Positions 44,474 to 48,817 of a stretch of DNA of 64,000 bases are shown piece after piece. The notes under the pieces were generated by a model. It worked only from the letters and a program-made list of their open reading frames with translations. It was not told the DNA's origin and made no database searches. The number at the start of each line of letters is the position of its first letter. The stretch's first letter is position 1. Made by a program: the position numbers and the translations under genes. This stretch comes from Odoribacter sp. (GTDB lineage Bacteria > Bacteroidota > Bacteroidia > Bacteroidales > Prolixibacteraceae). The DNA lies in NCBI GenBank assembly GCA_013824715.1, contig PNOH01000007.1, positions 1 to 64,000 on the forward strand, in the 5' to 3' direction.

Positions 44474-47176
44474 ATGGATATCCCCAGCAAATACAACCCC
44501 GCCGAAGTAGAAAACAAATGGTACCAATACTGGATGGAAAACAAATTTTTCCATTCTGAACCCGACGAACGCGAACCTTACACCATTGTCATTCCACCAC
44601 CAAATGTCACAGGCGTATTGCACATGGGGCACATGCTCAACAATACCATTCAGGATATCCTGACTCGTCGAGCCCGGATGCTGGGTAAAAATGCCTGCTG
44701 GGTTCCCGGAACAGACCATGCATCGATTGCCACCGAAGCCCGTGTGGTGAACAAACTGAAAAATGAAGGAATTTCAAAATTTGACCTGACCCGGGATGAA
44801 TTCCTGAACCATGCCTGGGAATGGACCCACAAACACGGCGGAATCATTCTGGAACAGCTTAAAAAACTGGGAGCTTCGTGCGACTGGGACCGCACCGCTT
44901 TTACAATGGACGAAATTCGCAGCGAATCGGTGATCAAAACTTTTGTTGATTTGCACGATAAAGGACTCATTTACCGTGGTGTTCGCATGGTGAACTGGGA
45001 TCCGGCTGCAAAAACAGCTTTGTCTGACGAGGAAGTGATTTTCAAAGAAGTTCAGTCGAAATTGTATTATTTGAAATACCGCATAGAAAGCTCCCCCTCC
45101 GGGGGAGTTGAGGGGGCTTCTTTTATAACCATCGCAACCACGCGTCCTGAAACGATTTTGGGTGATACTGCCGTTTGCGTGAACCCAAATGACGAGCGTT
45201 TCTATCACTTGAAAGGCAAAAGGGTATTGGTTCCGCTGATCAACCGCTCCATTCCGATTATTGAAGATGAATACGTGGATATGGAATTTGGAACGGGCTG
45301 CCTGAAAATCACGCCATCGCACGATGTGAACGACTACGAAATTGGTCTCCGCTTCAATTTGCCAAGTATCGATATTTTCAACGAAGATGGAACCATGAGC
45401 GAAGCAGCCGGATTGTTTATCGGAGAAGATCGTTTTGTAGTCCGTGAAAAAATCATGATCGAATTGGAAGCTGCCGGAAATGTGGCCAAGGTTGAAGATT
45501 ATACCAATAAAGTTGGTTTCTCCGAACGGACTCATGTTCCTATCGAACCCAAATTGTCTGCACAATGGTTCCTGAAAATGGGATCAATTATTCAGCCTGC
45601 CATTGATAATGTGCTGAACGATACCATTCAGTTTTATCCTCCGAAATTCAAAAATATCTATCGCCACTGGATGGAAAACATCAAAGACTGGTGCATCAGC
45701 CGACAGTTGTGGTGGGGACATCGGATTCCTGTTTGGTACATCAGCCCCTCCCCGGCCCTCCCCCAAGGGGAGGGAGAAAGCAACTACGGATTTGTGGTTG
45801 CTGCAACAGAAGAGGAGGCACGAAAATTGGTTATCGAAAAATTCCCCTCCCTCGGAGGGGTTAGGGGAGGCTCTGGGGGAGGCTTCTTTCTTCATCAGGA
45901 TGAAGATGTGCTTGATACCTGGTTCTCCAGTTGGTTATGGCCGATCTCGGTTTTCGACGGAATCAGTAATCCGGATAACAAGGAAATCAACTATTATTAT
46001 CCTACCAACGATCTGGTAACCGGTCCGGATATTATTTTTTTCTGGGTAGCACGCATGATTATTTCCGGCTATGAATATCGAGATCAGTTTCCTTTCAAGA
46101 ATGTATATTTCACCGGAATGGTGCGCGACAAACAACGTCGCAAAATGTCTAAATCGCTGGGCAATTCGCCCGATCCGCTCGACCTGATTGAAACCTACGG
46201 AGCCGATGGCGTTCGCGTTGGAATGTTGCTTTGCTCACCAGCAGGCGGCGATTTGATGTTCGATGAAAGTTTACCACAGCAGGGTGCCGGTTTTGTTACC
46301 AAAATATGGAACTCATTCCGTTTGGTTAACGGCTGGGAAGTGGACAAGAAACTTCCGCAGCCTGAACATTCCCGGATTGCCATCAGTTGGTTCCATGAAA
46401 AGTTCAGCCAGATTGTTGAGCAAACCGATGACCATTTCGATAAATTCCGCATTTCGGACGCTTTGATGAATGTTTACACCACCGTTCGCGACGAGTTCTC
46501 GGGCTGGTTGCTCGAAATGGTGAAACCAGTCTATCAACAGCCAATTGACGGAAAAACATACGAGGAACTGATTGATATTTTTGACGAAGTATTGCGCTTT
46601 CTCCATCCGTTTATGCCTTTCGTGAGCGAAGAAATATGGCAGTTGCTGAAAGAACGCAAACAAGGCCACAGCATCACAATCAGCTCGTGGCCAAAATCAA
46701 CCGGCTACGACGAAACTTTGATTGCTCAGTTTGAAGATGTGAAAGAAGCCATCGCTGGTTTACGCACCATCCGGACCAAAAATAACATTCCGAACAAAGA
46801 TCAACTCGAGTTGTCCATTATGGTTGGTGACAAAGGTTTTGCTCCTGAATTCAACAGCGTGTTGGTGAAAATGGGCAACCTTTCGGCCTTGAATCTGATT
46901 ACGGAAGAAGTAAAGGCTGCGGCATCCTTCCTGGTAAAATCAACTACTTTTTTTGTTCCAATGGGCGGAACAATTGATGTGGCAGAAGAACTGAAAAAAC
47001 TTCAGGCGGAACTGGATTATGCCAAAGGTTTCCTGAATTCAGTAGTGAAAAAACTATGCAACGAACGATTTGTAAGCAGCGCCCCTGAAGCCGTAGTGGC
47101 CATCGAACGTGCCAAACAAGCTGATGCCGAAGCAAAAATTAAGGTTCTGGAAGAACAGATTGTGGGATTGAGATAG
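44474..47176 (+). CDS. valS: Valyl-tRNA synthetase with in-frame repeat insertions
   Basis: A 900-residue class I synthetase. N-terminal [18 protein letters not shown], the HIGH-type motif [17 protein letters not shown] near residue 46, the editing domain ([17 protein letters not shown]), GRIPVW-region [11 protein letters not shown], and the KMSKS-type motif [14 protein letters not shown] are all present. A C-terminal coiled-coil arm ([20 protein letters not shown]) completes it. ATG 44474 is the start; upstream GTG readings run into an intergenic repeat. Three GC-rich palindromic inserts (45089-45124, 45744-45780, 45841-45895) are translated in frame. They lie at surface-type positions and the reading frame stays open, so the enzyme is probably functional. 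Confidence 0.95.
45089..45124. repeat. In-frame palindromic insertion 1 in valS
   Basis: AGCTCCCCCTCCGGGGGAGT contains a perfect palindrome (CTCCCC-CTC-CGGGGGAG) followed by a GGGGGCTTCTTTT tail. It is translated as [12 protein letters not shown] at the start of the editing domain, just before the conserved [14 protein letters not shown] segment. Confidence 0.7.
45744..45780. repeat. In-frame palindromic insertion 2 in valS
   Basis: CCTCCCCCAAGGGGAGGG gives a hairpin with a CCCTCCCCGGC lead. It is translated as [14 protein letters not shown] between [11 protein letters not shown] and [10 protein letters not shown], where related synthetases have only a short loop. Confidence 0.7.
45841..45895. 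repeat. In-frame palindromic insertion 3 in valS
   Basis: CCCCTCCCTCGGAGGGGTTA followed by GGGGAGGCT twice. It is translated as [16 protein letters not shown] before [13 protein letters not shown]. It lies 60 bases after insertion 2 and shares the CCCCTCC/GGAGGGG core with the other inserts. Confidence 0.7.
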
Positions 47177-48666: not shown

Positions 48667-48817
48667 ATTGATTTGGAAGAAGAACTGAAAAAAACCGGGC
48701 AACGAACGCTTTGTGAGCAGCGCTCCCGAATCAGTTGTGGCCGTTGAACGCACCAAACAGGCCGATGCTGAGGCTAAAATTAAAGTTTTGGAAGAGCAGA
48801 TTGCGGGTTTACGATAG
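48667..48817 (+). pseudogene. Divergent valS 3'-end fragment
   Basis: ATTGATTTGGAAGAAGAACT (from 48667) matches the valS stretch at 46973-46992, then about 56 bases are missing, and from 48695 the fragment follows valS from 47058 to the TAG stop (48815-48817). The last 38 codons encode 34 identical residues ([10 protein letters not shown]...VLEEQI.GLR), and most base changes are at third positions. It is headless and cannot be expressed as a synthetase. The divergence pattern shows it evolved under selection elsewhere before arriving here. Confidence 0.8.

Follow-up and report, generated by a model that had tools for sequence, protein, structure and literature searches.

Triplex-type repeats in frame in a valyl-tRNA synthetase gene of Odoribacter sp. 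as probable relics or ends of a homing-like DUF559 element

How did three related GC-rich repeats come to lie in frame within a single intact gene for valyl-tRNA synthetase (ValRS), and what kind of sequence are they? The gene, valS, lies in the window, the whole stretch of 64,000 nucleotides that was analyzed, which belongs to a draft genome (G000; 4.60 Mb, 98.9% complete). Both Pfam and NCBIfam identified its product as valine--tRNA ligase. The original prediction of three related GC-rich blocks in frame in an otherwise intact valS was borne out by a strict detector, for which the three repeats, here called TM1, TM2, and TM3 (sites 1 to 3), were the sole matches in the 64 kb, and by the single 900-aa frame (Table 1). 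Sixty dinucleotide shuffles of the window gave a mean of 0.03 matches, always with stems shorter than 7, and 500 shuffles of valS gave 0 matches. Chance or low complexity as the origin of the blocks was ruled out by these shuffles and by the reversed-pattern control given below.

Table 1. Features of the valS region (positions in the window; parts of TM2 are given on the minus strand)
Feature	Position	Strand	Description
valS, valyl-tRNA synthetase gene	44474-47176	+	900 aa, single open frame spanning all three repeats
TM1 (site 1)	45091-45116	+	found by the strict detector and in relatives' valS; encodes SPSGGVEGA
TM1 arm	45091-45097	+	CTCCCCC
TM1 loop		+	TCC
TM1 arm'	45101-45107	+	GGGGGAG
TM1 spacer		+	TT
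TM1 mirror tail	45110-45116	+	GAGGGGG
TM2 (site 2)	45745-45774	-	left half of inverted pair, tail outward
TM2 parts		-	arm CCCTCCCC, loop TTG, arm' GGGGAGGG, spacer CCG, mirror tail GGGAGGGG
Native valS coding sequence	45775-45843	+	69 nt flanked by TM2 and TM3, with homology to relatives that lack the repeats
TM3 (site 3)	45844-45870	+	right half of inverted pair, tail outward
TM3 arm	45844-45850	+	CCCCTCC
TM3 loop		+	CTC
TM3 arm'	45854-45860	+	GGAGGGG
TM3 spacer		+	TTA
TM3 mirror tail	45864-45870	+	GGGGAGG
Extra tail-like sequence	45875-45883	+	GGGGGAGGC, directly after TM3; unique to this genome among 8 with a site-3 repeat
Copy of valS 3' end	48686-48814		about 1.5 kb downstream of valS

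The blocks had been described as plain palindromes with a CCCCTCC/GGAGGGG core. That core belongs to TM3 only, TM1 having CTCCCCC/GGGGGAG and TM2, on the minus strand, CCCTCCCC/GGGGAGGG, and each unit is a hairpin followed by a mirror-image tail. When 24 hairpins of the same genome were placed side by side, they followed a common plan of a C-rich arm, a short loop, a G-rich second arm (arm'), 2-3 nt, and a G-rich tail ending in C, in which the tail repeats arm' in mirror order. All three tails in the window are perfect mirrors of their arm'. Since all three repeats thus contain an arm, a purine arm', and a mirror third strand within one strand, they are class II intrastrand triplex motifs (pyrimidine arm, purine arm, mirror purine tail) by base order, and judged by sequence the blocks are almost certainly triplex-type motifs (TMs).

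The mirror rule was evaluated on hairpins gathered by their arms and the G content of the tail, with the base order of the tail left unused. This set comprised 214 distinct hairpins, of which 202 have an A in arm', with 40 different arm' sequences among these 202. In these 202, mirror agreement between the tail and its own arm' was 0.923, against 0.591 (sd 0.016, z 20.4) for permuted tails, and the best of 500 permutations reached 0.641. Direct (non-mirror) agreement was at chance (z 0.9), and among the 186 hairpins with asymmetric arms the mirror score exceeded the direct score in 136, equaled it in 43, and fell below it in 7. An antiparallel purine-motif third strand follows a code of G over G-C and A or T over A-T. 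In elements with a mirror score of at least 0.7, the tail has G opposite G in 1072 of 1078 cases, and opposite A it has A 180 times, T 58 times, G twice, and C once. The spacer lengths (3 nt in 129, 2 nt in 34, 4 nt in 17, and 1 nt in 1) are compatible with a foldback. This mirror pattern points to selection on the pattern itself, and the covariation of arm and tail lends evolutionary support to the view that selection has favored a purine-motif foldback triplex. DNA folding calculations gave arm-tail Watson-Crick pairing as the lowest-energy fold of TM1 and the arm-arm' hairpin for TM2 and TM3. Despite being the lowest-energy fold for TM1, arm-tail pairing was rejected as the explanation of the covariation, because a mirror tail pairs in this way only with a nearly symmetric arm.

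As had been predicted, the repeats form a dispersed family. The core palindrome occurs 21 times in G000 versus 0 for the reversed control pattern, and a covariance model found at least 100 matches at E ≤ 1 and at least 58 at E ≤ 0.01, so further genome copies do exist; these counts are lower bounds, as only part of the first-look candidates was scored. We mapped 96 of 100 matches and excluded the other 4, which lie outside the stretches examined. Neighbors within 250 nt were arranged '-+' in 20 cases, '--' in 3, '++' in 2, and '+-' in 0; opposed neighboring TMs thus point their tails outward, and TM2/TM3, which enclose 69 nt of native valS, are one such inverted pair. The interiors of the 20 inverted pairs share matches of just 19-31 nt; the pairs therefore did not arise by copying of a single unit, which also rules out a MITE with a conserved interior. 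Eighteen of the 96 copies lie well inside an open frame of at least 150 aa, a count that takes in only copies in open frames and that gene-breaking copies escape. Eleven of them are in seven Pfam-supported genes, namely valS (3 TMs), two histidine kinases (3), PurL (2), and genes for an Eco57I methylase, a NAD epimerase, and DegT, as the prediction of in-frame copies in conserved genes had it; 1 lies in a long frame without a Pfam match and 6 are in frames judged spurious. On one contig (C76; L175, 5473-5580 and 9130-9156), two histidine-kinase paralogs have a common left TM inside the ATPase domain, and the right TM is found in one alone, a possible recent gain or loss.

We compared the three sites among relatives. 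All 60 family genomes searched have a valS, and the alignment took in 38 loci of 37 genomes. Site 1 carries a DUF559 domain in 5 genomes, a TM only in 4, and neither in 28; an extra valS-DUF559 fusion lies on a short contig of G050. The insert of G035 scored 111.9 bits for DUF559 (PF04480) against a gathering cut-off of 20.6. In G018 and G035, site 1 holds TM(-)-DUF559-TM(+) in frame with both TMs outward, and TM1 of the window is identical to the right end of this element at the same valS site in both genomes. G002 and G003 have an inverted TM pair without DUF559 at this site, so that four states exist there: the full unit, the inverted pair without the nuclease, a single TM, and an empty site. 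The endonuclease gene between such repeats in relatives had originally been missed. Sites 2 and 3 co-occur in 8 genomes, and no DUF559 was seen at either site among the relatives.

The same alignment bears on how the repeats sit in the protein. Some relatives lack the inserts, as expected: G047, of the same genus, is without all three, in addition to the 28 genomes without a TM or DUF559 at site 1. The notion of simple insertion needs qualification at sites 2 and 3, where native residues look replaced and not solely added to. Whether relatives carry the same loops with unrelated DNA received a mixed answer, in that their same-site repeats share the plan and sometimes belong to another sequence class; intact ones obey the mirror rule, and some copies are degenerate, e.g. 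in G003 and G034. Against the solved Thermus thermophilus ValRS (1gax), the positions of the repeats are unaligned or gapped, in line with the placement between conserved motifs that had been stated. AlphaFold models were poor for both the window ValS (mean pLDDT 55.0) and the Tangfeifania ValS-DUF559 protein (54.4; about 67-80 per block in the DUF559 stretch), and the 50 matches listed of 399 in a Foldseek search with the latter model were all synthetases. Downstream of valS in the window lies a copy of its 3' end (84% to residues 858-900) that contains TGA (Table 1), and similar fragments occur near valS in G047 and G018 too.

In a quick valS tree built with insert columns removed, G000 (single TM) is sister to the DUF559 carrier G018 (SH-aLRT 84), the empty G047 joins these two at 98, and G035 (DUF559) follows at 100; G034 (TM) is sister to G046 (DUF559) with support of 99. 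Because the empty G047 lies among carriers, the tree fits gain or loss alike, and neither a target duplication nor an exact boundary between empty and filled alleles was established. The single TMs at site 1 are nevertheless best read as relics, since G000 and G034 are each sister to a DUF559 carrier, and we infer loss as against gain on this ground. The striking count of three in one gene thereby reduces to a likely endonuclease-element relic at site 1 and one inverted pair at sites 2 and 3.

The association of DUF559 with TMs extends well beyond valS. PF04480 was found in 41 of 60 family genomes, and around the 30 family loci listed we looked for strict TMs within 250 bp. A TM was present on the left in 23, on the right in 22, and on both sides in 18, of which 13 were tail-outward and 5 otherwise. 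These 5, like the 12 loci of 30 in which at least one side is free of strict TMs, count against the element reading; by eye, several one-sided or bare loci show shorter or imperfect TMs. Controls gave 0 for shuffles, 0 of 11 for the Y1_Tnp genes of G000, and 1 of 26 and 0 of 26 for the outer flanks of valS. A second set consisted of the best 80 of 544 relatives, obtained when an alignment of valS/ileS inserts was run against named genomes, and nearly all from Bacteroidota. Here TMs were present on the left in 64, on the right in 70, and on both sides in 55, all 55 of which have an outward TM on each side, against 1 of 1600 shuffles per side. We found 77 of these 80 DUF559 genes inside larger open host frames (one cut by a contig end) and 3 standalone. 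The hosts were recG (31), valS (21), ileS (17), spoIID (3), leuS (2), purL (2), and cca (1), counts that are biased because the query consisted of valS/ileS inserts. Two recG records, L205 and L240, are labeled Pseudomonadota and may be misbinned. By eye, the junction is constant within recG, within valS, and within ileS; the two leuS loci are entered before TTRPDT and valS before its TTRPET stretch. Further in-frame or terminal hosts in the family, named by eye, are restriction enzymes, HisD, and TrpF. Intein/Hint families were absent from 7 fused proteins (Pfam, E ≤ 1e-5), which contained host and nuclease families only, and 12 fused loci gave 0 matches to intron RNAs at Rfam gathering scores, the host frame being continuous. 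TMs in relatives are thus the inverted, mostly outward-facing ends of small DUF559-carrying units, and from their reading frames these units appear to be translated, unspliced domains at fixed junctions in valS, ileS, recG, and other genes. A nuclease gene can evidently live unspliced inside conserved, partly essential genes (those for ValRS, IleRS, LeuRS, RecG, and PurL).

Across the family, TMs occur in 32 of 41 genomes with DUF559 versus 3 of 19 without, genomes that are not independent of one another; with genus means, the Spearman coefficient was 0.77 (n=23). Two genomes count against the element reading. G000 itself is among the 3 exceptions, with 58 TMs at E ≤ 0.01 and no DUF559 found in this draft by a PF04480 search, and G047 has two DUF559 genes and just 4 TMs.

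Palindromic elements of Rickettsia, to which the window repeats had been likened, are in-frame palindromes in protein genes, and we know of no nuclease that goes with them. A neutral, non-autonomous repeat of that kind, which merely adds loops, would accommodate the copies that conserved genes carry in frame (in G000, 11 elements in 7 Pfam-recognized genes), but it would not account for the triplex architecture with its mirror covariation or for the 78 of 96 G000 copies whose position is not well within a 150-aa open frame, and the nuclease gene between repeats in relatives had already weakened it; we regard it as very improbable. The likeness is one of description, and the comparison is an analogy and not a membership. 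Elements of this kind are cited in PMC3733652.

What kind of nuclease is DUF559? A profile of the inserts (A3) matched the solved structures 3hrl, endonuclease-like (4.5e-27), and 3r3p, a 'mobile intron protein' (2.2e-6). YcjD, the E. coli DUF559 protein, detects Vsr at 1e-5 (PMC1189080). The dN/dS ratio of DUF559 was 0.04-0.11 in 9 of 14 pairs and 0.24 in one nearly identical pair, with 4 pairs saturated, and host genes gave 0.03-0.07 where computed; the inserts are under purifying selection. Such selection would also be expected of a housekeeping repair nuclease acting on triplex or hairpin DNA, fused copies of which were domesticated in RecG, ValRS, and other proteins, with TMs as substrates or signals and not mobile ends, and the Caulobacter DUF559 protein VsrA is tied to DNA damage and presented as a Vsr-like repair endonuclease (PMC12907096). 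The domain is patchy in close relatives, though, with four states at one site, and its hosts are unrelated (RecG, aminoacyl-tRNA synthetases, PurL, SpoIID, and restriction enzymes), with TMs adjoining the domain in most cases, which makes a housekeeping role quite unlikely as the explanation. In a tree of 80 DUF559 loci, with 23 further rows (standalone, family ileS, and trpF) left out, copies group by host gene (11 changes versus 42 when shuffled), and there are jumps, e.g. the valS copy of G058 (L238) beside an ileS copy.

Taking these results together, we favor, with a probability of about 0.7, the reading that the window repeats are relics or ends of a homing-like DUF559 element that settled in frame in conserved genes. 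For TM1 such a relic is very likely. For TM2/TM3, as a related inverted pair, it is reasonably probable, the link being weaker because neither site 2 nor site 3 showed a DUF559 and because the pair encloses native sequence. In the proposed mechanism, the DUF559 nuclease (Vsr-like, PD-(D/E)XK) would cut repeat-free alleles near the junction, and repair of the break would copy the unit into the cut allele; we put homing of this kind at even odds. The folded TM ends might guide cutting or joining as recognition points, the host would survive because both the ends and the nuclease are open in its frame, and later loss of the nuclease would leave in-frame TMs. The repeats in G000, a draft in which we found no DUF559, are probably immobile now.

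Short palindromes of the REP/REPIN type also form inverted pairs and are thought to be moved by the RAYT (TnpA-REP) genes that they flank, as 'REPtrons' (PMC6006769, PMC3733652). Like TMs, they occur in many copies with a flanking nuclease gene and some in-frame insertions, and some RAYT subclasses of the Bacteroidetes go with REPs that are atypical or in frame (PMC6006769). TMs might accordingly have spread by other machinery, such as RAYT/Y1 transposases or replication slippage, DUF559 merely collecting at TM-rich unstable spots; the many TMs of G000 beside no DUF559 found, the mostly unrelated interiors of the inverted pairs, an outward orientation that is not universal (13 of 18 in the family set), and the existence of those RAYT subclasses would all suit this explanation, as would a RAYT-like C-terminal fragment, recognized by eye, on contig C3 of G000 near 11.6 kb (L116:2700-3031), about 0.5 kb from a TM. 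This fragment is outside the 11 Y1_Tnp matches, and two more TMs lie further off. However, TM units contain DUF559 and not HUH/Y1, have a triplex tail, and lack the GT[AG]G or CGTC foot: among the 96 hairpin feet of G000, GTAG occurred twice, GTGG once, and CGTC once. None of the 11 Y1_Tnp genes of G000 has a TM within 250 bp, so RAYT as the driver is unsupported. With two-sided TMs outward in 55 of 55 loci of the second set (best 80 of 544) and the same junction within recG, valS, and ileS, we consider spread by other machinery rather unlikely. The proposed element resembles homing endonuclease elements (inteins and introns) in that its nuclease occupies a constant position within a conserved gene and in its profile match to 3r3p, and differs in that DUF559 stays as an unspliced domain of the host protein and that the unit has TM ends.

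TMs themselves are already known. TMECO and PIT elements are described as intrastrand triplex repeats whose spread is unexplained, in a paper that also names earlier work by Hoyne and Maher (PMC4666352). The window repeats share with them the class II order of pyrimidine arm, purine arm, and reverse-Hoogsteen tail, a 3-nt second loop, a GC-rich composition, and inverted pairs of unlike types. They do not fit the TMECO consensus (CCCTCNCCC N3-6 GGGNGAGGG N3 GGGNGAGGG), having stems of 7-8 and other sequences. Single-stranded TMECO is reported to form a triplex in solution by CD and NMR, and Holder et al. report that neither duplex DNA nor in vivo footprinting gave evidence of one (PMC4666352). 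In the same account, TMECO is always intergenic in MG1655 without a linked mobility gene, and mobility activities were never found around its sites (Holder et al. 2015, PMC4666352), whereas the copies described here lie translated within conserved genes and, in relatives, accompany a DUF559 gene. TMs have a long record in bacteria, with neither a clear function nor a mobility gene attached to them. The open-licence literature that we searched yielded no paper linking TMs to DUF559 or reporting in-frame DUF559 in these genes.

Beyond Bacteroidota, a tblastn search found DUF559 in 40 plasmid-collection records. All of the 10 that were examined have at least one TM-detector match within 271 bp, in raw detector counts that include some GC-rich loci and one match with a weak tail. 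Two of the 10 are E. coli chromosomes with TMECO adjoining the DUF559 gene. The region of that gene, ycjD, was matched in 3365 of 5426 E. coli genomes, K-12 MG1655 included. Of five E. coli loci examined, four have TMECO next to ycjD, exclusively on its 3' side, strain 2015C-3107 being the one in which it was not found beside the gene. It is somewhat better than an even chance that bacterial intrastrand triplex repeats, TMECO included, derive from a widespread mobile element, as its ends or as its relics. This element would use DUF559 as its engine, would home in frame at constant positions in conserved genes, where it would stay as a translated domain that is not spliced out, and would have the foldback triplex as its recognized end; it would then represent a class of mobile element that spares its host by staying in frame instead of splicing. 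Through the link to DUF559, the question becomes open to direct test in E. coli K-12, where ycjD has TMECO next to it. Cyanobacterial plasmid DUF559 genes with TMs (L267, L270, and L273) adjoin DUF1156 or BREX PglX genes, surroundings that look defence-like, and a Photobacterium DUF559 gene (L269:970-1450) is followed by five TM-detector matches in series.
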